In this document: positions 9,469-58,463 of the stretch, piece after piece
How positions within the stretch are numbered: position 1 is the stretch's first letter
Layout: each line of letters opens with the position of its first letter
Origin: Fibrobacter sp.
Lineage (GTDB): Bacteria > Fibrobacterota > Fibrobacteria > Fibrobacterales > Fibrobacteraceae
NCBI GenBank assembly: GCA_024399065.1
Contig: JAKSIB010000015.1
Span: forward strand, 1 to 64,000
Direction: 5' to 3'
Length of the DNA: 64,000 nt
The notes under the pieces: model-generated
What the model saw: only the letters and a program-made list of their open reading frames with translations
What the model was told of the DNA's origin: nothing
Databases searched by the model: none
Program-made: the position numbers and the translations under genes

Positions 9469-9479
9469 AATTGAACCTC

Positions 9480-11717: not shown

Positions 11718-11734
11718 AGAATTCCTCTGATGCC

Positions 11735-11881: not shown

Positions 11882-11889
11882 TATAAACT
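11882..11889 (+). promoter_or_regulatory. Late-type promoter inside TnpB element copy 2
   Basis: TATAAACT at the same position in the element as in copies 1 and 3. Confidence 0.5.
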
Positions 11890-11996
11890 TATTTATGATA
11901 AGAGTTCTTGGCAGTCCTCCTATCAAGGTTAGATTTTAGAATGTCCTCGGAACGCTGACTGCCAATTTTAAGTGTTTCGGGGACATTTGCTTATCT

Positions 11997-13100
11997 ATGG
12001 TTGAATTGAAGACGTACAAGTACAAGCTGTATGATCGGGATGCGTTAAAGTATCTCGACGGCATACTTGTTATTGCTGGTCGGATATACAACCACTGTAT
12101 AGCTTTGCACCGTAGGTACTACGGCATATACAATAAGATGCTGAACAAGTATCAGTTGCAGAAGCACTTAACCAAATTGAAACGACAGTATCCAGAGTGG
12201 AATGAGGTTCCTTCGCAAGCCATACAAGATATAACGGATAGAATAGACCGAGCATATCGGCTGTTCTTCTCGAACTTGAAATCTGGGAAGAAGACTAATC
12301 CTCCTCACTTTCAGAAGACAGATAAATACCGTTCATTCACGACGAAGCAAGCTGGATATAAGTTCCATGGTTTAAATCGTGTTAAGATAGGCAAGAAAGA
12401 CTTCCCCTACTGGAATAGTAGAAATTTCGATGGCAATGTCAAAACATTGACCGTCAAACGCAAGAGTAACGGCTTCTATATATACATTGTCGTAGAGCAA
12501 GAATGTACACAGACAGAGTGGACTAAATCGGGTGAAATCGTTGGTTTCGACTTCAGTCTGCATGACTTCTTGGTTTCCTCTAACGGTGATGATTGCAGTA
12601 TGCCTAAAATTTTGCGGAAGAACCTCAATTCTTTAAGGAACTTATCGGAGAAATACCGTAGGTCTAAAGGTAAACGAGGTTCGCTGCGTACATTGCAGAA
12701 GCTACATGAGAAGGTGGCTAATCAGCGTTTGGACATGCACTGGAAGCTGGCACGGCAAATGTGCCGTGACTACGATGTGATGGTGTTCGAGACGCTAGAC
12801 TTAGCTAATATGTCCAAGAAATACAAGAAATCGATGTATGACTTCGGGTTCAACACTTTCTTGAACATACTGGAGTATGTGGCACACAAGACTGGCAAGA
12901 CCGTTATGTATGCGGACAAGTGGTATCCATCTAGTCAGCTATGCTCCAAATGTGGATTTCAAAACCACGAATTGAAGGATGTATCTATACGACATTGGAT
13001 ATGTCCTAGCTGTGGTGCAGAACATGATAGGGATAGGAACGCCGCAATTAACTTATGTAAGGTAGGGGCATCTACCTTTGGGACATGTTGCTCGCAGTAG
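11997..13100 (+). CDS. tnpB: TnpB RNA-guided endonuclease (copy 2)
   Basis: 367 residues, nearly identical to copy 1 with intact RuvC residues (GFDFSLHD, VFETLD, HDRDRNAA) and zinc ribbon (CSKCG, CPSCG). Differences are patchy: one central block is identical to copy 1, while the stretch around 12727-12890 follows copy 3, including wording of synonymous codons. That suggests gene conversion between copies. Confidence 0.93.
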   Translation: MVELKTYKYKLYDRDALKYLDGILVIAGRIYNHCIALHRRYYGIYNKMLNKYQLQKHLTKLKRQYPEWNEVPSQAIQDITDRIDRAYRLFFSNLKSGKKTNPPHFQKTDKYRSFTTKQAGYKFHGLNRVKIGKKDFPYWNSRNFDGNVKTLTVKRKSNGFYIYIVVEQECTQTEWTKSGEIVGFDFSLHDFLVSSNGDDCSMPKILRKNLNSLRNLSEKYRRSKGKRGSLRTLQKLHEKVANQRLDMHWKLARQMCRDYDVMVFETLDLANMSKKYKKSMYDFGFNTFLNILEYVAHKTGKTVMYADKWYPSSQLCSKCGFQNHELKDVSIRHWICPSCGAEHDRDRNAAINLCKVGASTFGTCCSQ

Positions 13101-13143
13101 CAACTCCCAGAATCCCACAACTTTAGTCGTGGGAGTATGTCAA
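13039..13143 (+). ncRNA. Predicted omega-RNA scaffold of TnpB copy 2
   Basis: Same hairpin series as copy 1. The guide would begin ctagaatatgctgaaa at 13144. The 5' limit is approximate. Confidence 0.65.
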
Positions 13144-13232
13144 CTAGAATATGCTGAAAACTTTCCATTGAAAAATGTCCTTTGGATGGTACAGCTTAAA
13201 TATAACATATCCCAGAATGCATGTCAATACTT

Positions 13233-13823
13233 TTATAATAGCATCTTTTTTGCGTATTTATTGATTACATCCGATACATAGCGTACAAAAAATACCTCTG
13301 ACCTGTTTGGAATTTTATAGGGGGTTGTGGCGTGCGGAATCTCGTATGTGCTATATTTTAATGGATTTAAGTTAATGTCGTCGATTGTCGCTAAATCTTC
13401 CACACCACTATGTATGCAGATTCCGATCAGGCGGGTTATCATGCCGGTTGTTGGCCCAGAAATATATTCATCATGATATTGTCTATATTTTTTGATAATT
13501 TTCTTTGCGGTTTGCAAATCGCAGCTAAACAGAATGCCTGTAACTAGTTGGCTATACTCAAATTGGCACTGGCTAAGTAGATCTACTAAGAACCCATATT
13601 CGACAAAATCCGTTCCTCTTGTTAATACGATGAAGATGTCATTCGTTTCATTAACACGGGGATTGCCGATTCGCATGGTTAGCGCAGGAAATTGTTCCTG
13701 CGGGTGGCTGATTCGTATTCCATAGGTACCGCCGTGTTCATCTGAGTATGAGACCAATGAGATTAAATTTAATGTGGCGATGTAATCCACTAAAGCTGTC
13801 AGAGTTGTCTTGAAATCGGTCAT
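13233..13823 (-). CDS. Hypothetical protein with C-terminal NPLxY module
   Basis: 196 residues. No known domain. The C-terminal third contains D-D-I-N-L-N-P-L-K-Y (about 152-161) and ends YAKKMLL. The same pattern appears in the next two upstream genes and, at the N-terminus, in the two FISUMP proteins. It is the last gene of a three-gene leftward operon with 4-nt overlaps. Confidence 0.75.
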   Translation of the reverse strand: MTDFKTTLTALVDYIATLNLISLVSYSDEHGGTYGIRISHPQEQFPALTMRIGNPRVNETNDIFIVLTRGTDFVEYGFLVDLLSQCQFEYSQLVTGILFSCDLQTAKKIIKKYRQYHDEYISGPTTGMITRLIGICIHSGVEDLATIDDINLNPLKYSTYEIPHATTPYKIPNRSEVFFVRYVSDVINKYAKKMLL

Positions 13824-31860: not shown

Positions 31861-33042
31861 ATGATTGAAATTCAGGGCAAGTACAATACTGCAAAGGTTT
31901 TCTGTGATATACCGGAATCCGCCGCATATGCTCAGATTTTGAATATGATGTGCCAGTGCTGGTCTGCCGATATGCAGGTAAGAATCATGCCGGACGTACA
32001 TGCTGGTAAGGGTTGTACCGTGGGTACTACGATGACCATCAAGGATAAGATTGTCCCTAATCTGGTCGGTGTGGATGTAGGATGTGGCATGCTTGTTGCC
32101 AAGATCAAGGACCCGTTCATCGAATTCGGGAAGCTAGACAAGGTTATCCGTGAGAAAATCCCGTCCGGCAAGAACCATCGCAAGGATAAGCATCCGCTTG
32201 CACGCCAGTTCTCCCTAGATGACCTGATTGCTGATGTCAAGCCGGATGAACTGTTGTCCATCGGGTCGCTCGGCGGTGGAAACCATTTCATCGAGGTTGA
32301 CCGTGATGACGATGGGTTTTTCTATGTCGTGATCCATTCCGGATCCCGTCACCTCGGCGTTGCTGTATGTGATTACTGGCAGCGCAAGGCTATTGAGGAG
32401 TGCAAGACTCGTACAGATGAGCGTGGTGCAATCATCGCTAAGCTGAAGTCCGAAGGCAGGGAAACCGAAATCGAACATGCGTTGCAGAATATTGAACATT
32501 TTTCAACGCCACCGGCATTGGCTTATCTGCAGGGTGAATCGTTTGATGGCTACTTGCACGACATGGCTATTGCACAGGAATTTGCCGTCCTGAACCGTGA
32601 GGCTATGATGAATGAAATAGTGAAGAATATGGGATTCCATGTAATCGATAAGTTCTGCACTATTCATAACTACATTGATCTGGACCGCATGATCTTGCGA
32701 AAGGGGTCGGTGTCTGCACAGGCTGGCGAGCGACTTATCATTCCGATGAATATGCGTGATGGCGCCCTAATCTGCGTTGGTAAGGGTAATCCGGACTGGA
32801 ATTACTCTGCACCGCACGGAGCTGGCCGCATCATGTCTAGGTCAGTAGCTAAGGATACCGTTTCCATGGAAGAATACAAGAAGTCCATGGAAGGAATTTA
32901 CACTACCTGCGTGAACGCCGGGACAAAGGATGAATCGCCTATGGCCTATAAGCCTATGCAGGAAATTATTGATAATATTGGCGATACCGTAGATATTGAA
33001 AAGATCATTAAGCCAGTGTACAATTTCAAGGCGGCATATTGA
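31861..33042 (+). CDS. rtcB: RNA-splicing ligase RtcB
   Basis: 393 residues, close to the usual ~400. Hallmarks in order: M-P-D-V-H near 43, G-V-D-V-G-C-G-M near 74 (metal site), G-S-L-G-G-G-N-H-F near 138, H-S-G-S-R near 159, and the C-terminal K-S-M-E-G near 341, where the active-site His of the family sits nearby. RtcB joins 2',3'-cyclic phosphate (or 3'-phosphate) RNA ends to 5'-OH ends using GTP and Mn2+. In a phage it likely reseals tRNAs cut by host ribonucleases. Its stop overlaps the next start (TGATG). Confidence 0.95.
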   Translation: MIEIQGKYNTAKVFCDIPESAAYAQILNMMCQCWSADMQVRIMPDVHAGKGCTVGTTMTIKDKIVPNLVGVDVGCGMLVAKIKDPFIEFGKLDKVIREKIPSGKNHRKDKHPLARQFSLDDLIADVKPDELLSIGSLGGGNHFIEVDRDDDGFFYVVIHSGSRHLGVAVCDYWQRKAIEECKTRTDERGAIIAKLKSEGRETEIEHALQNIEHFSTPPALAYLQGESFDGYLHDMAIAQEFAVLNREAMMNEIVKNMGFHVIDKFCTIHNYIDLDRMILRKGSVSAQAGERLIIPMNMRDGALICVGKGNPDWNYSAPHGAGRIMSRSVAKDTVSMEEYKKSMEGIYTTCVNAGTKDESPMAYKPMQEIIDNIGDTVDIEKIIKPVYNFKAAY

Positions 33043-33955: not shown

Positions 33956-34000
33956 TGGGCATTTTTACGGATGAAGCATATTTTACACATGAGGAGTATT

Positions 34001-34870
34001 ATGGCGTATTCTAGTTTTGACATTTACATGAAGCAGTATGAAAGCGTTGAAGCACAAAAAACTCTACTGCCCGGGCTTCCCATTTGCGTGCGTCTTGACG
34101 GGCGTGCATTTCATACGGTTACGAAGAAGTGCTTGAAGCCGTTTGATCCTCAGTTGCGTGAAGTCATGAACCGTGTGGTCGAGGACCTGATTGAAGAATG
34201 TGACGCAGTTCTCGGCTATACGCAATCAGATGAAATAACTCTTGTGCTGAAACCAATGAACAAGCTGGACGATTATTATTTTAAGGCTCGTATCCAGAAG
34301 TTGTGCAGCATGCTGGCGTCCGTTGCAAGTGTATCGTTTAATACCTTGGTCCGAAGCGATGAATTCAAAGATAACTTGGGTATGCGAATTACGAAGCAGG
34401 CATATTTTGACTGTCGTGTCTGGAATGTCCCGAATATGGCGTTTGCAGCTATGGTGTTTAGCTGGCGTCAGGCCGATTCGATCAAGAATAGTATCAGCAT
34501 GGTTGCACAGTCGCATTTTTCCCATTCAGAATTGCTGTCAAAGAATAGTGATGAAAAGATTGACATGCTGGCGAATATTGGGGTATCATATCATTCGTAT
34601 CCCGCCGAATATCGGCAGGGGGTGTTTGTTAAGCGAGTATTGGTAACTCGTAAATACACCGTAGACGAGCTTGAACAGTTGCCTGAAAAGCATGCCGCTA
34701 GACAGTGCCCTGACTTGATGGTAACTAGGTCTGAGTATCGAAGATTCGCTGGCGAAGAACTTAGGTCTATACAAAATCAGGCTGAATATTTGTTTGATGG
34801 TGCTGATCCGGTGTTTAGAGAATTGGATTATCGAGGCAAATATCAAGATAGCCAGACGCCAACACCATAG
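34001..34870 (+). CDS. Thg1-like 3'-5' RNA polymerase
   Basis: 289 residues from the ATG at 34001 (GAGGAG upstream). Matches the Thg1/TLP family: catalytic V-R-L-D-G-R-A-F-H near 31, Q-S-D-E-I-T-L-V near 77, F-D-C-R-V-W-N-V-P near 136. Thg1 adds G-1 to tRNA-His. Bacterial and phage Thg1-like proteins instead add nucleotides in the 3'-5' direction to repair 5'-truncated tRNAs. Its place three short genes after rtcB supports a tRNA repair role. Confidence 0.88.
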   Translation: MAYSSFDIYMKQYESVEAQKTLLPGLPICVRLDGRAFHTVTKKCLKPFDPQLREVMNRVVEDLIEECDAVLGYTQSDEITLVLKPMNKLDDYYFKARIQKLCSMLASVASVSFNTLVRSDEFKDNLGMRITKQAYFDCRVWNVPNMAFAAMVFSWRQADSIKNSISMVAQSHFSHSELLSKNSDEKIDMLANIGVSYHSYPAEYRQGVFVKRVLVTRKYTVDELEQLPEKHAARQCPDLMVTRSEYRRFAGEELRSIQNQAEYLFDGADPVFRELDYRGKYQDSQTPTP

Positions 34871-34993: not shown

Positions 34994-36289
34994 ATGAACA
35001 TACAATCACTTAGCCGCTATGTTATGCATGGGCTCAAATTTACCCACACGCTCGGTCTTGATGGAAATCACGGTATCGGGAAAACGTCGTTCGTCAAATA
35101 TACTATGCGTGATTTGATTGCAAAGAAGCATGGTCTCCCTATCGATCGTGTTCATGTGATTACCCGTTGTGTATCCATTATGGACCCTGCCGACTTGATT
35201 GGTAACTTTATTGAGTTCAATGGCCGTACATACAACTGTCCGCCGAACTGGATCCCTACAGCAAAGTGCTATGATGACATGATGGAAGAGCTCTTTGAGT
35301 CCAATGGCAGAAAGTACACTAGACTGACTAATTATGATGATATCTACATCCTGTTTCTCGACGAACGTAAGCGAGGCAACCCTATGGTTCAGGATGGTAT
35401 CATGGAATTGTTGTTGGAACATACCCTGTTTGGTGCCCCGTTGCATGAAAAGACTTATGTAGTGTGCGCCGACAACGATAATATCGAAATTTATCACGGT
35501 ACGAAGACTGATCCTGCTCAGGAAAGCCGTATCAAGTCAACCAAATTTTCCCCGACCAATTCGGAATTCCTCGCAGATTGGAATCGACGTGTAGAAGAGG
35601 GGACGATGCACAGTATTGTCCCGGAATTCCTTGATGCGCATAAAGAATGTATCTCGCTGCCGACTAATACGATCCGTGACATGTATATTGCCGGAAAGAA
35701 GCCGCCTTGCCCACGAGACTGGACTACGCTTGGTGAAGCGTTGAAAGATTTTGCATTGGAAGGCGATGATATCGTTAATGGTTCAGCGTCTTATTTGACT
35801 GACGTTGCCGCCATGCACGTTGGCCAGACATATGCCACCAAGTTTGCTGCATATTGTCTCAAGGAACGCCAATTCAAGGTGACTCCAGAGGACATCGTTG
35901 AAACATTTGAAGATGTCAGGGATAGTGTAGAAAAGGCTTTTGCCAAGGATCCGACATCTGCTGTTGGCGTTGTACGTGCATTAGTCCCATATATTACCGA
36001 CATTACGCTTGACGATGAACAGGCACATAATGTGGCCGCATTCCTGCAGGTATGCCCGGGTGAAGCGGTTTCAGCCCTGTATTCCGAATGGAACAAGCTT
36101 AACAAGCATCAGTTTGCTGAATGGCAGAATACACCGTTGCGTTATAATGTATTTAACCGTGCGATTATGAATAATGTAGCCAAGGAACCGGGCAAGCAGT
36201 CTGCATATGAGAAGTGGTGCACGGCATTCTGCAAGCGTTATGATCTTAATGTAGATGACCTTAGCCGTGACGATATCAGAGTGCAGTAA
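34994..36289 (+). CDS. MoxR-like AAA+ ATPase
   Basis: 431 residues. Walker A GNHGIGKTS at 24-32; Walker B I-L-F-L-D-E-R-K-R near 119; helical C-terminal half. MoxR ATPases act as chaperones that load metals or assemble complexes together with a VWA protein. The next gene starts on its last base and supplies a VWA domain, the typical pairing. AAATGGAGA upstream. The client could be virion proteins or the neighbouring stress module; not resolvable here. Confidence 0.85.
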   Translation: MNIQSLSRYVMHGLKFTHTLGLDGNHGIGKTSFVKYTMRDLIAKKHGLPIDRVHVITRCVSIMDPADLIGNFIEFNGRTYNCPPNWIPTAKCYDDMMEELFESNGRKYTRLTNYDDIYILFLDERKRGNPMVQDGIMELLLEHTLFGAPLHEKTYVVCADNDNIEIYHGTKTDPAQESRIKSTKFSPTNSEFLADWNRRVEEGTMHSIVPEFLDAHKECISLPTNTIRDMYIAGKKPPCPRDWTTLGEALKDFALEGDDIVNGSASYLTDVAAMHVGQTYATKFAAYCLKERQFKVTPEDIVETFEDVRDSVEKAFAKDPTSAVGVVRALVPYITDITLDDEQAHNVAAFLQVCPGEAVSALYSEWNKLNKHQFAEWQNTPLRYNVFNRAIMNNVAKEPGKQSAYEKWCTAFCKRYDLNVDDLSRDDIRVQ

Positions 36290-37593
36290 TGACTGATGAA
36301 GAATTCGAAAAAAGCTTTGACGGCACTATATGTCGCCTGATGATCAACTGTCCGTTGGTCTTCAATATGCTTGTCGGCATGGAAAAGATTGAAGACCCGC
36401 ATATTGAAACGATGGGTGTATCTGTACGCAACGGCGCAGTGTCACTGCGATATAACAGGTCGTTTGTCGAACCGCTGGACGAGCGTGAGCGTAATTTCTG
36501 CCTCATGCATGAAATGATGCATGTCATGTTGCACCACTGTACGCATCGAAGGTCGGAAAACAAGGCCTATGCGTACATAGACAACGTTGCCATGGATTTG
36601 GCAATTAACTGCATGATACCAAATGACCAGTTTACCAATATGCCTGTGTTTAAGGAATCAAAGTTCGGTAAACGTGCTGGTGACCCGGCCGGTCTTCTCC
36701 CTAGCCAGTTTGACTTTCCTGAAAAACTGTCATATGAACAGTACAAGGATTTGCTTATCCGCAAATATGACCTGAATGACCCAAGCCAAGTTTCATTTAT
36801 GGGTGATGACAGTGGCGGTAGTTCTGGCAATGGTACTGGCGATGGTAGCGGAAATGGTAATTCTAGTGGTTCTGGCGAAAATGGGGATGATATCGACGAA
36901 AACTGTGCATTAGGACAGATCACTAAAGGCCGTATTTCTGCTGATCATGGCGAAGAATATGACGAGGACCCGGTCCTCGATGATATCATAGCAGATATGA
37001 TAGAAGAAGCTACCCGAAACAATACATGGGGTAACATCGGCTATGACGCAATCGAAATTGTCAAGGCTGCACAAGCTAGAACATTGAATTGGGGAAATCT
37101 CCTAAGGCTTTATGCGGGCGACTTTATTTCGCCGGACAAAACACCTACTAGGCGCCGCTGGAACAAACACTACGGAAAACCGTTCTTGGGGACCGTGACG
37201 AAATTCACTGAGCCGGTTGCGGTATACGTGGATACGTCTGGCAGTGTTGACATCGATTCACTTTCGAGGTTTGTATCGGAAATCGAACGCATTGCATATT
37301 ACACTGGTGTATATTTGTGGAGTTTCGACACCACAGTTAAGGAACCTGACTCGAAGGTTGTTTTTACTCGTGGAGCTATCGGAGAGATTAAGTTCATTGG
37401 TCGTGGCGGAACCGATTTCGAAGACTGTTTTAATCATGCTCGTAAATATGGTTACAGTCAGCTTGTCATCATGACAGATGGGTTTGCATGTGATGTCGAT
37501 CCTAAATCGGCTGACGGGATGGATGTGGTATGGGTTATTACCAAGAATGGCAATCCGATTGGGAAACCCGGACGTGTTGTGGAGATGACATAA
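36289..37593 (+). CDS. VWA-domain putative metallopeptidase (DUF2201-like)
   Basis: 434 residues. The N-terminal domain has the zinc-protease motif H-E-M-M-H near 85 followed by V-M-L-H-H. A Gly/Ser/Asn-rich linker spans about 175-205. The C-terminal VWA-like domain has the metal-adhesion start V-D-T-S-G-S-V near 309, T-D near 364 and M-T-D-G near 382. Such proteins pair with MoxR ATPases, as here. The predicted function is a chaperone/protease-type assembly factor. Confidence 0.88.
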   Translation: MTDEEFEKSFDGTICRLMINCPLVFNMLVGMEKIEDPHIETMGVSVRNGAVSLRYNRSFVEPLDERERNFCLMHEMMHVMLHHCTHRRSENKAYAYIDNVAMDLAINCMIPNDQFTNMPVFKESKFGKRAGDPAGLLPSQFDFPEKLSYEQYKDLLIRKYDLNDPSQVSFMGDDSGGSSGNGTGDGSGNGNSSGSGENGDDIDENCALGQITKGRISADHGEEYDEDPVLDDIIADMIEEATRNNTWGNIGYDAIEIVKAAQARTLNWGNLLRLYAGDFISPDKTPTRRRWNKHYGKPFLGTVTKFTEPVAVYVDTSGSVDIDSLSRFVSEIERIAYYTGVYLWSFDTTVKEPDSKVVFTRGAIGEIKFIGRGGTDFEDCFNHARKYGYSQLVIMTDGFACDVDPKSADGMDVVWVITKNGNPIGKPGRVVEMT

Positions 37594-38244: not shown

Positions 38245-39135
38245 CTATTCAAACATGCTTTTAAAAAATGCCTGCATGAATTCCTTCATCGCATCGTAAG
38301 TGAACGTTAGGCCTTCTTGCTCATTAAGGCAGATTACCTTCTTATGCAATGCTGCATCCAGCATTGCTTTTTTACTAGTCCCATCACCAAGTACGATATA
38401 TGTGGCATTGTTGTGCAGGTCATATGAATAAAATTTTCCGGTACCAAGCTGAATGTGTCTAAACATCCAGTGTGTGACGTTTTTGGGTTGCCTGAATCTA
38501 GAATCCATTAGGGCGCACCAAAGTTCATCAGGGTATTTTAGCCATGTGTCAATCCACGTTTTCTTATTGTATGCAATGGGAAAATGGAAGTCGGCATATC
38601 CCGTGTTCTTGTGATGAATGCGGTTGGCAATACGCTGGTTATTCTGCTGAGTAGTGTCGAACAGCCCGCCTTTAAGCCAGTTGTGCTTCGGTATCGCAAA
38701 ATCAACCGGAAGGTTGTCCACAAAGAAATCGGTTTCCTTGGTTGGCTGCACGACATAAAAATCATCATTGAACAGGATGAAGTTTGACGCTAGACCCGGT
38801 ATCATATGGAAGAACATTTCGATCACATTCGAATTAAATGTTGGTAGGAATGGTTTGGGTATATAGTCTTCATGATATACGATACGGACTTTTTCACTGA
38901 TCGTATCCATCCATGGTTCTTTTTGCGTCGGCGAAGCAAGTACGATTATGATATTGCGGACCCATGGACAGAACTTTATCATGCCCATGATCGTATATTT
39001 AAAAACGCCGAAGTCCCTGTATCGGCATTCGGCAGCAACACCGGCATCAATGCGGTGCCAGTGTTCGTACTGTTTTTTCCAAGCGGCGTCATTGGGATTT
39101 ACCCATGGCACCACTATATCGATTGGAGAGTTCAT
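38245..39135 (-). CDS. Stealth-family sugar-phosphotransferase
   Basis: 296 residues. CR1 motif IDIVVPWVNPNDAAWKK at 5-21; CR2 from RYRDFGVFKYTI near 38 to NFILFNDDFYV near 122; conserved NKKTW and Y-P-D-E-L-W later. Stealth proteins are capsule hexose-1-phosphate transferases. AAGGA upstream. It is another sugar-modifying enzyme away from the main glycan cluster. Confidence 0.9.
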   Translation of the reverse strand: MNSPIDIVVPWVNPNDAAWKKQYEHWHRIDAGVAAECRYRDFGVFKYTIMGMIKFCPWVRNIIIVLASPTQKEPWMDTISEKVRIVYHEDYIPKPFLPTFNSNVIEMFFHMIPGLASNFILFNDDFYVVQPTKETDFFVDNLPVDFAIPKHNWLKGGLFDTTQQNNQRIANRIHHKNTGYADFHFPIAYNKKTWIDTWLKYPDELWCALMDSRFRQPKNVTHWMFRHIQLGTGKFYSYDLHNNATYIVLGDGTSKKAMLDAALHKKVICLNEQEGLTFTYDAMKEFMQAFFKSMFE

Positions 39136-40409: not shown

Positions 40410-40438
40410 TTGACAAATCCGGTCAAAAAACGTATTTT
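40410..40438 (+). promoter_or_regulatory. Sigma70-like promoter
   Basis: TTGACA (40410-40415), 17-nt spacer, TATTTT (40433-40438), upstream of the PspA-like gene. Confidence 0.75.
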
Positions 40439-40491
40439 TACTAACGACGCAGGCGTAACAGCCTAACATTCACTAAAACAAAGGACTAAAG

Positions 40492-41172
40492 ATGTCTATT
40501 ATCGCTTCTATTTTCAAGAAAATCCTTGGACTCTTCAAGTGGGGTGCCATCAAGGTTGACTCTGGTATCGACAAACTCTATGACGCTCAGAAACGTCTTG
40601 AAGTTGTCAAATACGAAACGCTCGCTGCTCTCGATAAGCAGGAAGCTAACGCAAAGAAGATCCATGCAAGTAAGCTGGCGCTCGAAGATGAATTGAGCCA
40701 AGCCGAAAAGAACCTTACCCGATTCCAGACTCAGGTGTCTTGCCTGAAGAATCAGCTGATCGAAAAGGGTGTCGACTGGACCACCAATGACGACCTGCTT
40801 GATGCCGGCCGCAACGCACAGGAACAGGCAAACTTTGTTGCTACCCTGAAGGAACAGAAGGCTGCAATGGAAGAAATGTGCAAACGTGTTGACAAGATGC
40901 TGTCCAAGCTCAAGTCGAACCGTCGCCTCATCGAAACCAAGGCAACTATTCTTTCTTCCAAGATCAATTTCTACAAGAACCTTCAGGCTATCGATGAAAA
41001 TGGCAATATCGATATCGATCATGTATTTGGCGACATCGACACCGCTGTCAAGAACATGGAATATGATAGCAAGGCTTCCGCACACGTCAACGCTATCGTG
41101 AATGGCCAGAGCTCTGCTGAAGTCATGGCTTCCAATGCCGATGTTCTCAGTTACATCGACGGTTTGAAGTAA
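40492..41172 (+). CDS. PspA/IM30-like coiled-coil protein
   Basis: 226 residues. An N-terminal amphipathic segment (IIASIFKKILGLFKWG) is followed by nearly continuous helices rich in Lys, Glu and Ala to about 160, then a short acidic tail. This is the layout of PspA/IM30 (ESCRT-III-like) proteins, which coat and stabilise the inner membrane. PspA-like proteins recur in Ter stress loci, and a Ca2+ ATPase and three TerD genes follow within 6 kb. It has its own promoter and terminator. Sequence-level membership needs a profile search. Confidence 0.6.
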   Translation: MSIIASIFKKILGLFKWGAIKVDSGIDKLYDAQKRLEVVKYETLAALDKQEANAKKIHASKLALEDELSQAEKNLTRFQTQVSCLKNQLIEKGVDWTTNDDLLDAGRNAQEQANFVATLKEQKAAMEEMCKRVDKMLSKLKSNRRLIETKATILSSKINFYKNLQAIDENGNIDIDHVFGDIDTAVKNMEYDSKASAHVNAIVNGQSSAEVMASNADVLSYIDGLK

Positions 41173-41199
41173 TCCTGAACGAGTTGTGTTATGGAGACG

Positions 41200-41230
41200 A
41201 ATCCCGGGGATGCCCCCGGGATTTTGTTTT
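41200..41230 (+). terminator. Rho-independent terminator
   Basis: 10-bp perfect stem aatcccgggg / ccccgggatt followed by ttgtttt. Confidence 0.9.
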
Positions 41231-41239
41231 GGAGAATGT

Positions 41240-41791
41240 ATGTCGACATTTTGCTTGATTGTTGCTGGTATACTTACGCTAGACATGCTGCTTAGCCGTC
41301 TATTTAGACGTATAAAGCGTCTTACCCCGTATTTACTAGTGTGCGCCGTTGCCATAATCGTTATATCCATATCGAATAACGTGCATATCCCGCATGTAAA
41401 AATTCCGTCGGTCATTGAAACCGTACGGCATATCCCGTTAATCCCTACTAGCCAGATGGACGTTCAGTATAACGTCAAGCCGGGCGTTAACCTAAAAACG
41501 TTGAATAATAAGTTGCGTGCATCTATTCCTAAGATTGTCAGTGCGTATCAGGCCGAACTAGGCGCAACTTATATACCGACTATTACAAGCGGCGATGACT
41601 ATGACCGGCACAAGCCGAATTCGGCTCATTATCGTGGCCGGGCATTGGACTTTAGGCTGAATGACATTCATGCCGCCCGGCGCCGACATGCAATTTATAA
41701 TCGGGTCAAAAAATATTTAGGCAATGATTTCATTGTTATTCACGAAAGCCCCGGCTTGGTGAATGAACACTTACATGTTCAGTTAAAATGA
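41240..41791 (+). CDS. Membrane-anchored M15-like peptidase
   Basis: 183 residues from the ATG at 41240 (GGAG upstream). Two hydrophobic segments near the N-terminus (about 3-18 and 29-45) anchor it. The C-terminal part has the D-alanyl-D-alanine peptidase-type metal site: S-A-H-Y-R-G-R-A-L-D-F-R near 133 and N-E-H-L-H-V-Q at the end. It probably cleaves peptidoglycan peptides in the periplasm. It could serve in lysis or in protecting the cell wall during infection. Confidence 0.75.
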   Translation: MSTFCLIVAGILTLDMLLSRLFRRIKRLTPYLLVCAVAIIVISISNNVHIPHVKIPSVIETVRHIPLIPTSQMDVQYNVKPGVNLKTLNNKLRASIPKIVSAYQAELGATYIPTITSGDDYDRHKPNSAHYRGRALDFRLNDIHAARRRHAIYNRVKKYLGNDFIVIHESPGLVNEHLHVQLK

Positions 41792-41792
41792 C

Positions 41793-41821
41793 TTGCCGAT
41801 CATAACCATATTTTGTATATT
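41793..41821 (+). promoter_or_regulatory. Sigma70-like leaderless promoter
   Basis: TTGCCG (41793-41798), 17-nt spacer, TATATT (41816-41821), 7 nt to the ATG at 41829. The -35 is weak. Confidence 0.6.
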
Positions 41822-41828
41822 TGTTGCC

Positions 41829-42656
41829 ATGCAAGTTAGTCTGAAATATAGTATAGGCGATAAAGTCATTTTTTCCCAGCGTGAATATACGATTGACGCT
41901 TGGAAAATTGATGTAAAAAGTACAGGGATTGAAATCAAGTATTTATTCCATGCGTACTTAGATCCGGTTGTATCATATCATCAGGAAATATCGGAAAAAT
42001 ATTTGACCGAATCGGCAAGTGAACCGCACCCCTGTACGGTTGATCTTGATTTCACAGATTCTAACGGTATTGAAATAGGGTTAGGCGATTTTGTGTTTTG
42101 CAATATGGTGTCGCATCGATTAAACGGTGAAAAATATATTGCGTGGAATGATCTTACTTTTGCGTATTATGGTACAGTATTATCGTTTTGTTTCGAATTT
42201 AATAACGGTTGGGATTATATAATGCGTAGTGCATGGGTAAGCCGTGTCGGACCGTCGGTCGGGCCAAATGGGTCTCCGTACCGGGACGGGCGCCGGGAAG
42301 ACCGTGTCGGTAAAGAAATACTGGTATCGATGATAAAGTCACCTATTACCGATAATCTCGCTCAAATGTATGTAGATAGTTTTGTCGGCAGTAATGATGA
42401 CCGTATCAGGTTCATTAACAACAGCGACAGTTACTGGGATGCAAAACTGATTTTACGAACAGCTGGTGTATATGATGAGGTTGTTGAGAGGCTAAGTAAG
42501 ATTGCTGCACAGGCTAGTAATAAAAAAACTAAAACCTCCCGCAAAAAAGTTGACAAAACTGCCAACAAAATCGAAAAATTGAAGGCGCTTGTCGATGAAT
42601 TGGCTAAGCGTTCCGGTGTAACGATAAATTACAGGACTATGAAAATTATCGAATAA
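41829..42656 (+). CDS. Hypothetical protein, leaderless
   Basis: 275 residues. A beta-rich N-terminal ~160 residues precede a Lys-rich helical tail (about 220-265). The ATG at 41829 is 7 nt after TATATT. No family recognised. Confidence 0.7.
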   Translation: MQVSLKYSIGDKVIFSQREYTIDAWKIDVKSTGIEIKYLFHAYLDPVVSYHQEISEKYLTESASEPHPCTVDLDFTDSNGIEIGLGDFVFCNMVSHRLNGEKYIAWNDLTFAYYGTVLSFCFEFNNGWDYIMRSAWVSRVGPSVGPNGSPYRDGRREDRVGKEILVSMIKSPITDNLAQMYVDSFVGSNDDRIRFINNSDSYWDAKLILRTAGVYDEVVERLSKIAAQASNKKTKTSRKKVDKTANKIEKLKALVDELAKRSGVTINYRTMKIIE

Positions 42657-42746
42657 TAACGTCAACTACCAGCACAATAAGTTTGCACCTGATCGGTCGA
42701 AAGAACAACTAATTGATCCAGAAAATAATTTTTTCTAAAATATGTC

Positions 42747-42775
42747 TTGACAGCGGTGCAGCAAGTTTTTATATT
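42747..42775 (+). promoter_or_regulatory. Sigma70-like promoter of the P-type ATPase
   Basis: TTGACA (42747-42752), 17-nt spacer, TATATT (42770-42775). The preceding gap (42657-42746) shows nothing else. Confidence 0.8.
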
Positions 42776-42826
42776 CACACATGCGGGAAACTCCCGTCTA
42801 ATTTCATATCACAAAAGGTTAACAAT

Positions 42827-45460
42827 ATGAACAAGAAAAAAGGTTTGACTAGTGACGAAGTCTTGGTAAGCAAGGCTAACCATGGTCAAAATATCATTCC
42901 CGACTCCGAACCGACAACCTTCTGGGCCGAATTTAAGGAATCCTTTGGCGATCCGATGATCCGAATCCTGCTGGCGATTGCAGGCTTGATGATCGGTCTC
43001 TGGGGAGCGTCCAAGGTCTTCCCGCAGGCTGGTATTGAACAGGGTATCTATGAACCGATCGGCACCCTTGTTGCCGTATTCTTGGTTGCAACAATTTCAG
43101 CAAAGACGGCCGTGTCTTCCGATGGTAAGTATCGAGACCTGAAGAGCCGTACCAAGAAGGATACCGCAAAGGTTTGGCGTGACGGCGAATACATCGAATT
43201 GCCGTTCGAAGAAATTGTAGTAGGTGATGTAGTTCACCTGCAATCCGGCGATAAAATCCCTGCCGACGGCGTCCTTGTTGAAGGTTCACTCCGTGTTGAC
43301 AACTCTGCACTCAATGGCGAAGCTGATGAATGCAAGAAGGAAGGTGATCCGAATGCCAAGTTGCCTGAACAGATGTCCGGTGACATGTTCGTTGACAAGT
43401 CTTCTCTGTTCCGTGGAGCGATTGTGTATGACGGCGATGGCGAAATGGTCATCCAGCGTGTCGGCCTTCAGACTATGATGGGCAAGATGGCAGAAGAAAT
43501 GGCTGGTGATGAAGTTGACTCGCCGTTGAAGGTGAAGCTGGCTAAGCTTGCTGGACAAATTTCAATCTTCGGATATGTGTCCGCTGCTTTGATCGTTGTG
43601 CTTTACTTTGCTATGGGCGTGGTGAACGCTGGTGGCTTTGGTGAGTTCTTCGATCTTGGATGGCAGCATGTACTGAATACTTTCATCAATGCTGCTGATC
43701 TGGCTATCCTGATCGTTGTCTGCGCAGTACCTGAAGGTCTTCCTCTGATGATTTCTCTGGTTCTTATGCAGAACACATCCAAAATGCTTGACCACAATGT
43801 GCTCGTACGTAAGGCACAGGGTATCGAGACCGCAGGTTCTCTGAATATCCTGTACTCCGACAAGACTGGTACAATTACTAAGGGTAACCTTGAAGTAGTA
43901 GAACTGTTTAGCGGTGACGGTAAATCTACCGGAATGAGCAATGATCTCGGCGCTTGCCTTGCAAACAACACTCAGGCATCGTTTGATCGCATGGGTAAGG
44001 TTCTTGGTGGTAATGCAACCGAACAGGCTCTGATGAAGTTCTTGAATGCAGATCGTTTCCACGAATTTGCTGCCCAGACCGTAAAGTTCCAAGGTTTCAA
44101 CTCTGCCAATAAGTTCTCTCAGGTTCAGCTTGCTAACGGCCGTACCTATTACAAGGGTGCGCCTGAAAAGTTGATTTCCAAGTGTTCTCGCTTTGTCGAC
44201 ATCAATGGTGTAATCCATGATATTGACGCTACGGCACTTAACGACAAGATTACCGAAATGGCTAAGAAGGCTATGCGAATGCTTGCTTTCGCCTATGCGG
44301 AAAAAGATCTCGTCGAAGACTCCATCCATGACGATCTCGTACTGATTGCAGTAGCTGCAATCCGTGATGATGTTCGTCCAGAAGCCCGTGATGCAATCGC
44401 TGCAGTAAACCGTGCAGGAATTCAGGTTGTGATGATCACCGGCGACCGAATCGAAACCGCTCGTGCAATCGCAGTTGACGCAGGCCTCGTAACCAGCGAA
44501 AACGACATTGTACTTACCTCTTCCGACCTTAACGCAATGAGCGACGATGACGTTAAGGCAATTATCCCAAAGATCCGTGTTATCGCACGAGCTCTTCCTA
44601 CCGACAAGTCCCGTATGGTCCGCTTGTCACAGGAACTGGGCCTTGTGTGCGGTATGACTGGTGACGGTGTGAATGATTCCCCGGCCTTGAAGCGTGCAGA
44701 CGTTGGCTTTGCCATGGGTAGCGGTACTGAAGCTGCCAAGGAAGCTGGCGATCTGGTTATCCTTGATGACAATTTCCGTTCTATCAAGAACGCTGTTCTG
44801 TTCGGCCGTACGATTTTCCACAACATCATCAAGTTTGTCAAGTTCCAGCTGACCATTAACGTGGCTGCAGTTGGTGTAACACTGCTCGCACCGGTATTCG
44901 GTGTCGAAGCTCCATTGACTGTCGTTCACCTCCTGTTTGTGAACCTCGTGATGGATGGCCTTGGATCTATGATGCTTGGTTCCGAACCCGCATTGGATTC
45001 CTATATGACTGAAAAGCCCCGTAACCGTGACGATTCTATCATTGACAAGTCCATGATTGGTTCTGTGATTGTTCCGGCTGTGTGGATTATTGCACTCGGA
45101 TTTGTATTCCTGAAGCTCCCGATTTTCACTGGTCTCTTTGAAAGTACAACGCAGATGAATACCGCATTCTTTGCATTCTTTATCTGGGCTGCCTTGTGGA
45201 ATGGGTTCAATGTCCGTTCCGACAAGTTCAAGATTTTCTCCGGTCTTAGGGAAAATCCGGGATTCCTGAAGGTTCTCTTTACCATCGCAATTGTGCAGGC
45301 TCTGATCATCAATATCGGCTCGTTTGACAACTCTGTTTGCCAGACAATCTCAAAGATGTTCAGTTGTGTGCCGTTCGGTGGAATTGAATGGCTGATTATC
45401 GCTGCATTGTCATTCACAATCATCCCTATTGCATCCATTGCAAAGCTTTTTAATAAGTAA
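42827..45460 (+). CDS. P-type Ca2+-transporting ATPase
   Basis: 877 residues from the ATG at 42827 (AAAGG upstream). Order of parts: N-terminal cytosolic segment, membrane pair (about 43-95), actuator domain with the TGE-type loop (L-N-G-E-A-D near 165), membrane pair ending in V-P-E-G-L-P-L near 303, phosphorylation site D345-K-T-G-T, hinge G-D-G-V-N-D-S near 611, and six C-terminal membrane helices. P-E-G-L-P-L and the overall length fit the Ca2+-ATPase (P2) class. It would export Ca2+ or a similar cation from the cytoplasm. A P-ATPase is unusual in a phage. Confidence 0.9.
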   Translation: MNKKKGLTSDEVLVSKANHGQNIIPDSEPTTFWAEFKESFGDPMIRILLAIAGLMIGLWGASKVFPQAGIEQGIYEPIGTLVAVFLVATISAKTAVSSDGKYRDLKSRTKKDTAKVWRDGEYIELPFEEIVVGDVVHLQSGDKIPADGVLVEGSLRVDNSALNGEADECKKEGDPNAKLPEQMSGDMFVDKSSLFRGAIVYDGDGEMVIQRVGLQTMMGKMAEEMAGDEVDSPLKVKLAKLAGQISIFGYVSAALIVVLYFAMGVVNAGGFGEFFDLGWQHVLNTFINAADLAILIVVCAVPEGLPLMISLVLMQNTSKMLDHNVLVRKAQGIETAGSLNILYSDKTGTITKGNLEVVELFSGDGKSTGMSNDLGACLANNTQASFDRMGKVLGGNATEQALMKFLNADRFHEFAAQTVKFQGFNSANKFSQVQLANGRTYYKGAPEKLISKCSRFVDINGVIHDIDATALNDKITEMAKKAMRMLAFAYAEKDLVEDSIHDDLVLIAVAAIRDDVRPEARDAIAAVNRAGIQVVMITGDRIETARAIAVDAGLVTSENDIVLTSSDLNAMSDDDVKAIIPKIRVIARALPTDKSRMVRLSQELGLVCGMTGDGVNDSPALKRADVGFAMGSGTEAAKEAGDLVILDDNFRSIKNAVLFGRTIFHNIIKFVKFQLTINVAAVGVTLLAPVFGVEAPLTVVHLLFVNLVMDGLGSMMLGSEPALDSYMTEKPRNRDDSIIDKSMIGSVIVPAVWIIALGFVFLKLPIFTGLFESTTQMNTAFFAFFIWAALWNGFNVRSDKFKIFSGLRENPGFLKVLFTIAIVQALIINIGSFDNSVCQTISKMFSCVPFGGIEWLIIAALSFTIIPIASIAKLFNK

Positions 45461-45472
45461 CAGGGATAACTA

Positions 45473-45500
45473 GGTGCCGGGACGGCCGGCACCTTTTTTC
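45473..45500 (+). terminator. Rho-independent terminator
   Basis: 8-bp stem ggtgccgg / ccggcacc followed by tttttt. Confidence 0.9.
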
Positions 45501-45515
45501 TTACAAAGGTAACGT

Positions 45516-46238
45516 ATGATTAATTTGCAAAAGAATCAGGTTATCGATCTCGCCAAGAGCGATGACTCGAATAAGCTTGAAGACATCACTGTCGGAATGG
45601 GTTGGCTGATTGCATCGCAGTCAAAGAACGCCACATCTACCATTACCAAATCTAGACCTGCGCCGGGCTTCATGAATAAGCTCCGTGGTTGGTTCGGGCT
45701 TGAACAGACCATGGAAACTTACACAGAAACCGTTACGGTTGAAAAAAGCCAGTTTGAATACGATCTGGATGCGTCCTGTGTCGAACTCAAGGAAAATGGT
45801 ACGCTGTTTGGATCCTGCATGGAATACAGCACTGTTTACTTTGGCCGTAAGAATGGTACCGGAATTACGCATGGTGGCGACTGTCTGGTCGGTGGGGATG
45901 GCGATTCTGATGATGAAACCATCAAGATCAACCTGAATGTTGTCAATGCGCCACGCATTGTCGTATTCATGAACATTTACAAGGCGTCTTCCCGTAGACA
46001 GTCGTTTGCCAATCTCGACAAGGCTTACATCCGCATCTACAATACAAAGAATGGCAAGGAAATTTGTCGTTACAACATTGCAGATGATCTGGACCAGACC
46101 GCTACTGCCTTGGTGCTTGGCGAATTGTACAAGTCCGGCTCTGAATGGAAATTCAAGGCTATTGGTCAGTGCATGAAGGCTGACTATGTGTCTGACGCCG
46201 TGTCCTACATTGTCAAGTCCAATAAAAAATGGAAATAA
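45516..46238 (+). CDS. terD: TerD-domain protein, extended
   Basis: 240 residues. TerD fold with V-G-M-G-W near 26, F-E-Y-D-L-D-A-S near 83, and the Ca2+-binding cluster G-G-D-G-D-S-D-D-E-T near 126. An insertion of about 45 residues (about 34-78) containing a hydrophobic/aromatic patch (LRGWFGLE) separates the first strand from the rest and is absent from the other two. TerD proteins bind Ca2+ and act in tellurite/colicin/phage resistance and stress systems. Confidence 0.88.
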   Translation: MINLQKNQVIDLAKSDDSNKLEDITVGMGWLIASQSKNATSTITKSRPAPGFMNKLRGWFGLEQTMETYTETVTVEKSQFEYDLDASCVELKENGTLFGSCMEYSTVYFGRKNGTGITHGGDCLVGGDGDSDDETIKINLNVVNAPRIVVFMNIYKASSRRQSFANLDKAYIRIYNTKNGKEICRYNIADDLDQTATALVLGELYKSGSEWKFKAIGQCMKADYVSDAVSYIVKSNKKWK

Positions 46239-46251
46239 TTCATTTTAGGTC

Positions 46252-46281
46252 TTGACAGATCTTCCTAAAAAAACCTATATT
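46252..46281 (+). promoter_or_regulatory. Sigma70-like promoter of terD genes 2 and 3
   Basis: TTGACA (46252-46257), 18-nt spacer, TATATT (46276-46281). Confidence 0.75.
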
Positions 46282-46327
46282 GGGTAATGCCATAAGGCGA
46301 ACTCTCACTTTTAACAGGACTATAACT

Positions 46328-46894
46328 ATGTCTATTAGTTTGGAAAAAGGCGTGAATCACGTCATCGAAAAGACCACCCAGACCGCAAATGTTGGACTTG
46401 GATGGGACGTTAACAGCAAGGCTGGCAATGGCAATGATTTTGATCTTGATGCAGCCGTGTTTGCCCTGAACGAAAACGACAAGCTGGACAAGGAATCCAA
46501 CTTTGTGTATTTCAACAACAAGCATCCGGGCATTGGTATTGACCATAGTGGCGATAACCTGACTGGTGAAGGTGATGGCGATGATGAAGTCATTACCGTG
46601 GATTTCTCCAAGGTTCCCGCAACCGTTAAGAAGATTGCCGTTGTTGTCAGCATCTATAAGGGCGCTGAACGTCACCAGAATTTTGGTCAGGTGAAGAATG
46701 CGTTTGTTCGTTTGGTTGACACCACAAATGGCGCCAATACTGAACAGCTCCGTTTTGACCTCACTGAAGATTACTCCGGCGACACCGCCATTCACATGGC
46801 CGACCTGTATCGTCATAACGATGGCTGGAAAATGAAGGCTATCGGCGAAGGCATTAAGGGTGACCTGTCCACATTCCTTCAGCAGTACAAGTAA
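46328..46894 (+). CDS. terD: TerD-family protein
   Basis: 188 residues from the ATG at 46328, the canonical length. Motifs: V-G-L-G-W-D near 23, F-D-L-D-A-A-V near 39, G-E-G-D-G-D-D-E near 81, and Q-N-F-G-Q-V near 116. The acidic clusters form the Ca2+ sites of the family. It ends 2 nt before the next terD. Confidence 0.95.
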   Translation: MSISLEKGVNHVIEKTTQTANVGLGWDVNSKAGNGNDFDLDAAVFALNENDKLDKESNFVYFNNKHPGIGIDHSGDNLTGEGDGDDEVITVDFSKVPATVKKIAVVVSIYKGAERHQNFGQVKNAFVRLVDTTNGANTEQLRFDLTEDYSGDTAIHMADLYRHNDGWKMKAIGEGIKGDLSTFLQQYK

Positions 46895-46896
46895 TC

Positions 46897-47496
46897 ATGG
46901 GTACAATCAATCTTAAAAAAGGCGGCAAGATCGAACTTAGCAAGGGCTTGACTCATGCTATGGTCGGTCTTGGCTGGACCGCCAATTCGTTCGATGGTGC
47001 TGACTTTGACTTGGATGCATCCGTCTTCCTGTTGAATGACAAGGATAAGATGCAGTCAGATGAAGACCTCGTGTTTTACAACAACCCGGAACATAGCAGC
47101 GGTGCCGTAAGGCATGGTGGCGATGATCGTGTTGGTGGCGATGGTTCTTCCGATGACGAACAAATCTTTATCGATTTCGATAAGATCCCGAGTTACGTAA
47201 GCAAGCTTGAAATCGTGGTTACCATTTATGAATGGAAGACCCGTAAGCAGAACTTTGGTCAGGTTGAACGTGCGTATCTTCGTCTGGTATCGACAAACGG
47301 CGAAAATGTCGTTGATGGCAACGAAGAATTGCGCTTTGACTTGAGTGAAGACTATTCTACTAATACTAGCATCCTTATGGCAACGCTGTATCGTCAGGGC
47401 CGTATCTGGAAATTCACGTCCAGAGGTGTTGGCTACAACGAAGGTCTCGGTGCGTTCATCAAACGCTACGGGAATTCTTACCAGAATGGTGACTAG
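46897..47496 (+). CDS. terD: TerD-family protein
   Basis: 199 residues. Motifs: V-G-L-G-W-T, F-D-L-D-A-S-V, G-G-D-G-S-S-D-D-E and Q-N-F-G-Q-V. Its second Ca2+ cluster uses Ser where the previous protein has Asp. Same operon as the 46328 gene. Confidence 0.95.
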   Translation: MGTINLKKGGKIELSKGLTHAMVGLGWTANSFDGADFDLDASVFLLNDKDKMQSDEDLVFYNNPEHSSGAVRHGGDDRVGGDGSSDDEQIFIDFDKIPSYVSKLEIVVTIYEWKTRKQNFGQVERAYLRLVSTNGENVVDGNEELRFDLSEDYSTNTSILMATLYRQGRIWKFTSRGVGYNEGLGAFIKRYGNSYQNGD

Positions 47497-47553: not shown

Positions 47554-47964
47554 ATGAAATCCGCTAAAACTATGATCATTTCAAAGCTTATTGTGGTGGT
47601 ATTTGTGCTGGCCCTTATCCCGGCAGGATACGGACTGTATCTACTGAATACCATGACGATTACCGACGGGAAGTGCATATCCGAATTTACTGTCGACAAG
47701 TTTGACAAAACTCACGGTGTGCGACACGAATCAAATGCAGTAATCCTGCATGACACATCCAAGACAACGATCATTAAGAACATGACTTGTGCTGAATACA
47801 AGAACCCGGCCTATCCGTTTAGTCATGATCACCCGTACTGGGCTGTATATTCCGCACTGGTTGTAATTGGCGAAGTCGGCATTCTGATTGCATACCTATG
47901 TGCATCGTTGTGCGGATGGGTTGACCGTAAGATTACTAAATGGAAGGATAAGCGTCATGCGTGA
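47554..47964 (+). CDS. Membrane protein
   Basis: 136 residues with hydrophobic helices at about 8-30 and 92-115. The intervening ~60 residues would face one side of the membrane; a Lys-rich end faces the other. No family recognised. Follows the terD terminator. Confidence 0.7.
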   Translation: MKSAKTMIISKLIVVVFVLALIPAGYGLYLLNTMTITDGKCISEFTVDKFDKTHGVRHESNAVILHDTSKTTIIKNMTCAEYKNPAYPFSHDHPYWAVYSALVVIGEVGILIAYLCASLCGWVDRKITKWKDKRHA

Positions 47965-57296: not shown

Positions 57297-58463
57297 CTAC
57301 CATCGCAAGCGCATGTTTGATTCTTCTTCTACGATAGCAAACGCATGCTTGATCGCATCGTCCATGTCCATGTATGAATATGTACCCAAACGTCCGACGA
57401 ACTTTACACTTTTACGCATTATCTCGGATGAATTGTGCAGTTCGACATATCTTCGATACAGCTCATTATTCGCACTGTTGTTGATCGGGTAATATGGCTC
57501 TGCCCCGGGTTTCCATGGTGCCGGGTATTCCGTACTCACGATTGTCGTTGGTGTCTTTACCGATGGGTTGAACCATTTATGCTCGATTGTGCGTGTATAT
57601 TTCTGAGAATGTGTAGTATAGTTGAATACTGCATTGCCTTGCTTGTTTTCAGTCTTGTATTCTCGGTCGGTAAATTTTACAGTTCGATAGTCCAAATGAC
57701 CATATTCATAATCATAAAATTCATCGATGCATCCTGAATAAAAAGTCCTGTGCCGCACTGTTGTCATGCATTTAGCTTGTTCGCCGCCTACGCCGGTTTC
57801 CACCCTGATGAGTGGGTGGGTAAGCATATTCTGGATAATAGCAGTATATCCGTCGTCAGGGATCACCTGATAGGTGTCATTAAAATAATTGTTATCGTAG
57901 GACATGCGTAGAGGCAGACGCTTGATAATATCCGGCGGAAGATCGGTGCATTTGCACCCCCATTGCTTTTCAGTATAGTCACGTATCAGCAAAGAATATA
58001 TTGTACGGCCGACCATTGATATTGCCTGCTCTTCCAGATTGCGTGGGTTCTTTACATGGGCGATCTTGCGTTCGGCATTTAAAATGCGTGTGGCGTCCGC
58101 CGGCGTCACGCAGTTAGGGAATATCTGTGCGAACGTATTCATGTTGAACGGCATATTGACGGCCTTTGGTAGGCCATCTTCTCCCTTAGTGATAGCGATC
58201 GGGCTGTTGATAAACGGATGGAACTTGCCGAAGGATGTGATAAAGTTGTATACCTCCTCGTCGCTGGTATGGAATATGTGGGCGCCGTATTTATGCACAT
58301 GTATACCGTTAACCTGTTCAGTATAGCAATTCCCGGCGACATGCTGCCTACGGTCACAGACGAGGACGCTGTATCCTTGGTTGGCAAGAAGGTTGGCGAT
58401 TGTGGCACATGTAATGCCTGCGCCGACACAAAGGTAATCAACTGTTAAAGGTTCTGTTATCAT
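57297..58463 (-). CDS. glf: UDP-galactopyranose mutase
   Basis: 388 residues, AGGAG upstream. FAD-binding GAGITCATIANLLA near 13-26, substrate block Y-G-A-H-I-F-H-T near 59, and R-D-Y-T-E-K-Q-W-G near 160, hallmarks of the mutase. It interconverts UDP-galactopyranose and UDP-galactofuranose, supplying Galf for surface glycans. It suits the many transferases in this window. Its last codons overlap an imperfect 25-nt tandem duplication, so the final ~8 residues may be new. Confidence 0.93.
   Translation of the reverse strand: MITEPLTVDYLCVGAGITCATIANLLANQGYSVLVCDRRQHVAGNCYTEQVNGIHVHKYGAHIFHTSDEEVYNFITSFGKFHPFINSPIAITKGEDGLPKAVNMPFNMNTFAQIFPNCVTPADATRILNAERKIAHVKNPRNLEEQAISMVGRTIYSLLIRDYTEKQWGCKCTDLPPDIIKRLPLRMSYDNNYFNDTYQVIPDDGYTAIIQNMLTHPLIRVETGVGGEQAKCMTTVRHRTFYSGCIDEFYDYEYGHLDYRTVKFTDREYKTENKQGNAVFNYTTHSQKYTRTIEHKWFNPSVKTPTTIVSTEYPAPWKPGAEPYYPINNSANNELYRRYVELHNSSEIMRKSVKFVGRLGTYSYMDMDDAIKHAFAIVEEESNMRLRW

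Follow-up and report, generated by a model that had tools for sequence, protein, structure and literature searches.

The window analysed here is a 64,000-base stretch of DNA, namely bases 1-64000 of contig C15 (87,392 bases), which is part of a 3.8-Mb genome bin of Fibrobacter sp. It carries on its plus strand, at 40492-47496, five genes coding for a PspA-like coiled-coil protein, a Ca2+-translocating ATPase of the plasma-membrane Ca2+ ATPase (PMCA) type and three TerD proteins (TerD1, TerD2 and TerD3). The genes occur in the same order in two related huge phages, and the combination of pump, TerD and PspA-type genes is found again in a second lineage of viral contigs. We tentatively infer that the block is the phage counterpart of a Ter/Ca2+-ATPase stress locus known from bacteria and serves the inner membrane of the infected cell. 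A preliminary description, made from the letters of the stretch alone, had presented the region as a phage-borne Ter-type module; its assignments of phage origin, Ca2+ ATPase and TerD proteins are borne out below, as are its separate promoters, while its claims on PspA and the TerD1 insertion required partial or full revision and the neighboring peptidase that it mentions lies outside the conserved block.

Recurrence of the block in phages and its bacterial counterpart

Related huge phages were found via the window ATPase, which is 78 and 77% identical to its counterparts on the IMG/VR contigs L004 and L005 (355 and 308 kb, respectively). A further contig of the same bin, C5 (164 kb), shares a TnpB-type gene with C15 at 89% DNA identity, and its terminase is ~92% identical to the L004 and L005 terminases over residues 1-204 and 64-68% identical in the C-terminal part. 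Consequently, C5 and C15 are very likely parts of one huge phage. A bacterial origin of the contig was ruled out by its synteny with the 308- and 355-kb viral contigs, which encode terminases, by an endolysin-type amidase and by the matching terminase of C5. Neither phage terminase (TerL) nor TerD was found in any of the other 125 genomes of the bin's class and, since both are missing there, the bin may not represent the true host and the phage may have been mis-binned.

On L004 and L005, the gene order is PspA-like, ATPase, TerD1, TerD2, TerD3, small membrane protein and putative glycosyltransferase. This is the order of the window without its peptidase gene and the gene for a protein of 287 amino acids (aa), so that the block is kept in other huge phages, where the preliminary description had proposed to look for it. 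The three phages share it at just 41-78% protein identity.

When viral contigs were scanned with all TerDs, 54 loci were obtained, and in 16 of them the Ca2+ ATPase adjoins TerD. An adjacent PspA-type gene was present in 14 of the 16 loci with a pump and in 2 of the 38 without one, both of the latter lying at a contig edge (Fisher p 4e-9, a value not to be taken literally, as several loci are near-copies and only two or three independent lineages are represented). The second lineage (L144, L145, L147-L151, L153, L154, L157, L165 and L183) shows the order ATPase-TerD-TerD-TerD-PspA, and a terminase match was obtained over the cut-off in three of its records and weakly in three more. Its PspA has a hydrophobic, transmembrane-type N-terminus, matches PF04012 with E-values of 2e-7 to 6e-3 in the eight proteins tested, under the gathering score, and reaches a probability of 89 in a comparison of its profile with canonical PspA. 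A profile comparison between this transmembrane-anchored family and the PspA-like family of the window was negative (score 22.6), and judged by sequence the PspA proteins of the two lineages need not be orthologous. No relatives of the PspA-like protein were found among 50,697 phage records searched, nor in the host class outside the window. Because the ATPase clades of the two phage lineages are deeply separate, the combination of pump, TerD and PspA would either be very old, the lineages having split long ago, or have been put together on two occasions through separate acquisitions. TerD-like sequences as such are present in 263 phage records. A 258-kb viral contig (L141) carries five TerD genes together with a gene for a rhomboid-like membrane protein at 9390-13712, with no pump or PspA-type gene near them.

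The bacterial comparison comprised the best 80 loci carrying a pump of the window type, nearly all of them from Bacillota and mostly from the gut. Most are arranged as YceG-TelA-TerDx3-ATPase, often with additional StiP, lyase and PRTase genes, and none of the 80 showed a PspA profile match within the flanking DNA examined. The earlier statement that Ter loci often include PspA-like components is thus not upheld for chromosomal ter/Ca2+-ATPase loci; the association lies with the phage loci instead. TelA, YceG, StiP, lyase and PRTase gave no match in the window or in the L004 and L005 loci, TerC having been left out of the profile search. Since the Bacillota loci show the TerD-pump core but no PspA match, the phage block looks like a reworked Ter operon that keeps this core, with the PspA-like protein replacing TelA and YceG.

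The pump, the TerD proteins and the PspA-like protein

The ATPase gene starts at ATG 42827 and not at TTG 42713. Its product scores 576.8 bits on the NCBIfam equivalog for PMCA-type pumps (TIGR01517; cut-off 507), can be aligned almost from end to end with the plasma-membrane Ca2+ pumps of plants and mammals and retains DKTGT (the phosphorylation site), PEGLP in M4, NLVMD in M6, TGDGVND and KGAPE. The M4-M6 motifs agree with PMCA. Judged by profile and motifs, the protein is a genuine P2B (PMCA-type) Ca2+ pump, and its PMCA-like M5 residues, taken together with the established biology of P2-type ATPases, suggest a single Ca2+ site. It is the best-conserved of the proteins compared. Between the two closest phages, nonsynonymous divergence (Ka) is 0.07 and synonymous divergence (Ks) 1.26, and the pump is therefore maintained by strong purifying selection. 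A tree of the ATPases groups the window phages in a single clade (100/100) that is sister to a chromosomal pump of Treponema saccharophilum (100/99), which has ordinary chromosomal genes as neighbors; the second phage lineage falls into a 100/100 clade of its own, distant from the window phages. An origin of the pump in the binned host was rejected, since pumps of the host family are 43-47% identical and fall into another clade.

All three TerD proteins exceed the Pfam TerD cut-off of 25.3 bits (134, 216 and 208 bits for TerD1, TerD2 and TerD3) and keep the family-invariant acidic residues D83, D85, D122, D132, D133 and E134 (TerD1 numbering). In fold comparison, TerD1 and TerD2 match the solved TerD structures 2kxt and 3ibz. 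Binding of Ca2+ was studied for the TerD of 2kxt, and by homology to it the phage proteins probably bind Ca2+. An insertion in TerD1 had been described as absent from the other TerDs. It is indeed present, with 52 residues from GMGW to DLDA (47 and 50 in the relatives) compared with ~11 in most TerDs, but it is not unique: in bacteria, the TerD adjoining the pump often carries a hydrophobic loop that is glycine-rich and shorter, e.g., GGFFSSLFGG, and by sequence the insertion appears as an enlarged version of this loop. An AlphaFold2 model of TerD1 (16 sequences, mean confidence value pLDDT 85) folds the insertion into a beta-hairpin (40-48/66-74) with a helix cap (52-59), the hairpin block having a pLDDT of 71-92.

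For the PspA-like protein, AlphaFold2 (three sequences) yielded a model with a mean pLDDT of 70, in which most of the hairpin lies above 90 and both ends are of low confidence. The model comprises a helix (3-14), which is amphipathic, a long hairpin (22-91/100-166) and two further helices (175-203 and 215-225), corresponding to the PspA/Vipp1 layout.

Transcription units and neighboring genes

The block and its adjoining features, all on the plus strand, are as follows (nt, nucleotides).

40410-40438, plus: sigma70-type promoter TTGACA-17-TATTTT, 54 nt upstream of the PspA-like ATG
40492-41172, plus: PspA-like coiled-coil protein, 226 aa
41199-41224, plus: terminator-like hairpin directly 3' of the PspA-like gene
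41240-41791, plus: putative membrane-anchored M15/hedgehog-fold-like peptidase, 183 aa
41793-42656, plus: 287-aa protein with no assigned function, in the window phage only among the three related phages
42747-42775, plus: sigma70-type promoter TTGACA-17-TATATT, 52 nt upstream of the ATPase ATG
42827-45460, plus: PMCA-type (P2B) Ca2+-translocating ATPase by profile and motifs, 877 aa
45472-45494, plus: terminator-like hairpin in the gap between ATPase and TerD1
45516-46238, plus: TerD1 with predicted beta-hairpin insertion, 240 aa
46252-46281, plus: sigma70-type promoter TTGACA-18-TATATT, 47 nt upstream of the TerD2 ATG
46328-46894, plus: TerD2, canonical TerD, 188 aa
46897-47496, plus: TerD3, canonical TerD, 199 aa
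47516-47536, plus: terminator-like hairpin 3' of TerD3
47554-47964, plus: small membrane protein, following TerD3 in all three phages (25-38% identity)

In all three phages, the small membrane protein gene is followed by that of the putative glycosyltransferase. The motif TTGACA-N16..18-TATWTT occurs 12 times on both strands of the window, compared with 0.12 expected, and three of the 12 copies sit 47-54 nt upstream of the PspA-like, ATPase and TerD2 start codons. The separate sigma70-like promoters claimed earlier are therefore real beyond chance. TerD1 has no promoter of this type of its own and would have to be transcribed by read-through out of the ATPase unit. Of the terminator-like hairpins in the stretch, the three richest in G+C follow the PspA-like gene, the ATPase gene and TerD3. 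From the positions of promoters and terminators, the block is predicted to consist of several transcription units of the host sigma70 type. The 12 near-consensus promoters appear to form a phage-wide host-sigma70 set that is useful for mapping transcription units. Antisense open reading frames over the PspA-like, ATPase and TerD genes (e.g., 40486-41415, minus strand) were rejected as codon shadows of the real genes.

The peptidase had been noted alongside the five genes, but its gene was found in the window phage only, outside the block that is kept in the L004 and L005 loci. The protein begins with a hydrophobic helix in its N-terminal part and carries motifs of the SxHxxGxAxD / ExxHxH type, and its profile matches are weak and below the cut-offs (HH_signal, E 0.005; M15_2, E 0.09).

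Several other features of the phage were recorded. Its genome is rich in TnpB/IS605-type genes, with four copies on C15 (3258-4361, 11997-13100 and 59791-60906 in the window, and L026:8404-9555; 78-79% protein identity to the L026 copy) and one more on C5 (89% DNA identity). The gene for the large terminase subunit on C5 (C5:12705-15545, L220) contains an in-frame insertion of ~400 residues after residue 204, which matches a LAGLIDADG profile and, below the cut-off, intein-splicing profiles. DNA cytosine methyltransferase genes on the related phages (L004:4626-7016 and L005:4513-6513) are apparently split by an intein-like insertion. The window encodes a tRNA nucleotidyltransferase (9480-10865), an RtcB tRNA ligase (31861-33042) and a tRNA-His guanylyltransferase (33971-34870), although it contains no tRNA genes. 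A phage ATPase-family gene (phrog_1297) followed by a DUF2201 VWA/metallopeptidase-like gene occupies 34994-37593, and surface-glycan functions are represented by a Stealth-type (CR1/CR2) protein (38245-39135, minus strand) and a UDP-galactopyranose mutase (57297-58463, minus strand).

Proposed function, alternative explanations and known systems

As a phage version of the bacterial stress locus, the module might act as follows. Its proteins would be made by the host RNA polymerase during infection, and the pump would export Ca2+ leaking into the cell through a disturbed envelope. The tip of the TerD1 hairpin would dock Ca2+-loaded TerD assemblies on the membrane, while the PspA-like protein would polymerize on the same membrane, patching and stiffening it in the place of the bacterial TelA/YceG. 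The phage would gain a cell that lives longer and stays energized; a side benefit would be that rival phages, membrane-acting toxins and defences find the membrane harder to breach. In favor of this reading are the gene order shared with two other huge phages, the ATPase-TerDx3-PspA order of the second lineage, the frequency of PspA-type genes in viral TerD loci with a pump, the deeply separate ATPase clades, the purifying selection on the pump and its PMCA-type M4-M6 motifs, the lack of TerD in the other genomes of the class, the helix layout of the PspA-like protein with Vipp1 and PspA among its fold matches, the amphipathic helices, the modelled TerD1 hairpin, the promoters, and the strong gut transcription of the corresponding genes in the Jug phages described below. 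A more far-reaching version, which we consider unlikely, is that two lineages of huge phages carry a self-sufficient, Ca2+-switched membrane machine, in which the pump signals, the TerDs read the signal and dock, and an ESCRT-III-type polymer seals or remodels the membrane.

Several results weigh against the proposed membrane function. The PspA-like protein reaches 19.0 bits on PspA_IM30 (PF04012; cut-off 33.9) and its orthologues in L004 and L005 do not match this profile. Its model has no significant match in the PDB or in a library of viral folds: Vipp1 chains and PspA (4whe, TM 0.76 on the target) are among the Foldseek matches, and second place in the viral library goes to a phage PspA/IM30 protein, all with non-significant E-values. 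The VIA-align list neither supports nor excludes PspA, because helical hairpins of unrelated proteins (PI3K iSH2, HlyD, AhlC) predominate in it. A profile comparison with canonical PspA is collinear and near full length, with a score of 35.6 over 180 columns compared with 11-19 for reversed, fully shuffled and TelA controls, yet among 30 block-shuffled controls, in which the local composition of the coiled coil is preserved, the mean score is 26.6 and the highest 35.8. Since the best of these controls attains the score of the real profile, PspA membership, remote by sequence, is no more than possible, and “PspA-like architecture” is the fair label. The PspA-like identity put forward earlier thus agrees with the modelled helix layout but lacks a profile match over the cut-off; the preliminary description named such a failure together with a lack of conservation in relatives as its refutation, which does not apply because the block is conserved. 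Membrane docking of the TerD1 tip, which the model makes conceivable, is subject to a similar reservation: the hydrophobic moment of the tip is 0.80-0.83 in the relatives, similar to that of the PspA-like N-terminus, and an unexceptional 0.60 in the window protein, where 317 of 2000 shuffles were as high. Moreover, the pump could serve Ca2+ homeostasis alone, and the module genes lie in separate transcription units, so that their co-regulation is only presumed.

Exclusion of superinfecting phages may be the main benefit of the module or a by-product. As a main function, in which rival phages or plasmids would be blocked during a long or pseudolysogenic infection through Ca2+ removal and membrane coating, it appears possible but doubtful. 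Such a role was proposed for jumbo-phage Ter genes in PMC7824862, and it would fit the number of phage records with TerD-like sequences as well as the isolated jumbo phages in which TerD is accompanied by TelA, TerC and VWA partners; however, the block yielded neither the nucleotide-signal enzymes nor the TelA of the classical Ter loci associated with exclusion, TerC lying outside the profile search. Alternatively, the genes might be fitness cargo (a moron), i.e., a bacterial ter/Ca2+ operon that aids the host under gut stress and has no direct role in the infection cycle. The ATPase indeed nests beside chromosomal ter-operon ATPases of gut Bacillota, and the class of the binning lacks TerD in its other 125 genomes. 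Cargo of this kind is nevertheless unlikely, as the low protein identity among the three phages indicates that the block is old and retained, and a PspA-type gene accompanies it in phage loci but in none of the 80 bacterial ones.

That an ion transporter, TerDs and a structural coiled coil are merely adjacent, each in its own transcription unit, is suggested by the separate promoters and terminators and by the insertion of the peptidase and 287-aa genes between the PspA-like and ATPase genes. This explanation is already weakened by the recurrence of the same set in a lineage whose ATPase clade is deeply separate and in which PspA lies at the opposite end, and we regard it as improbable.

TerDs often accompany Ca2+ pumps and are carried by many phages. 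In the compact phage block, only the pump, three TerDs and a putative membrane-scaffold protein are retained, which suggests a minimal functional set that could be expressed as a unit, and the recurrence of the block suggests that phages bring their own kit for maintaining the membrane and calcium level of the infected cell. If the proposed membrane function is correct, phages would encode an ESCRT-III-like system for membrane maintenance, and Ter function would be linked to Ca2+ and the inner membrane instead of tellurium.

Phage Ca2+ ATPases, TerD-pspA neighbors and a suggested superinfection role for phage Ter genes are already published. In the passages of PMC12363816 and PMC7824862 examined, no description was found of the combined block, of its second-lineage recurrence, of how the bacterial locus differs from it or of the TerD1 hairpin; the combined module and its recurrence are the new part. 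The chromosomal ter locus of Bacillota likewise has three TerDs beside a PMCA-type ATPase, which is ~60% identical to the phage pump, and a TerD with a hydrophobic loop adjoining the pump. In most cases, however, the pump follows the TerDs, whereas in the phage block it precedes them and a PspA-like gene is added; the Bacillota locus also has C-C bond lyase, PRTase and StiP genes, to which the phage block shows no match. PspA and Vipp1, of the bacterial ESCRT-III superfamily, share with the modelled window protein the length, the amphipathic N-terminal helix and the long helical hairpin with two further helices, although the latter stays under the family sequence cut-offs and its fold match is non-significant. 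Isolated jumbo phages (Acinetobacter ME3, Caulobacter, Brevundimonas and Rhizobium TM) also carry TerD with partner genes, and a role of these in phage-phage conflict or superinfection exclusion was suggested in PMC7824862; the partners are TelA, TerC, VWA or nucleotide enzymes and not a Ca2+ ATPase. The Jug phages of Bacteroides/Phocaeicola are, according to PMC12363816, huge gut phages that likewise carry a Ca2+ P-type ATPase together with three terD genes, one of which adjoins a pspA-like gene, and strong transcription in the gut is reported for their Ca2+ ATPase and terD/pspA genes. In these phages, the ATPase forms an operon with a gene for a protein of 77-91 aa and the terD genes belong to two other operons, whereas the window, without the 77-91-aa gene, holds the pump, the three TerDs and the PspA-like protein within one 7-kb block.

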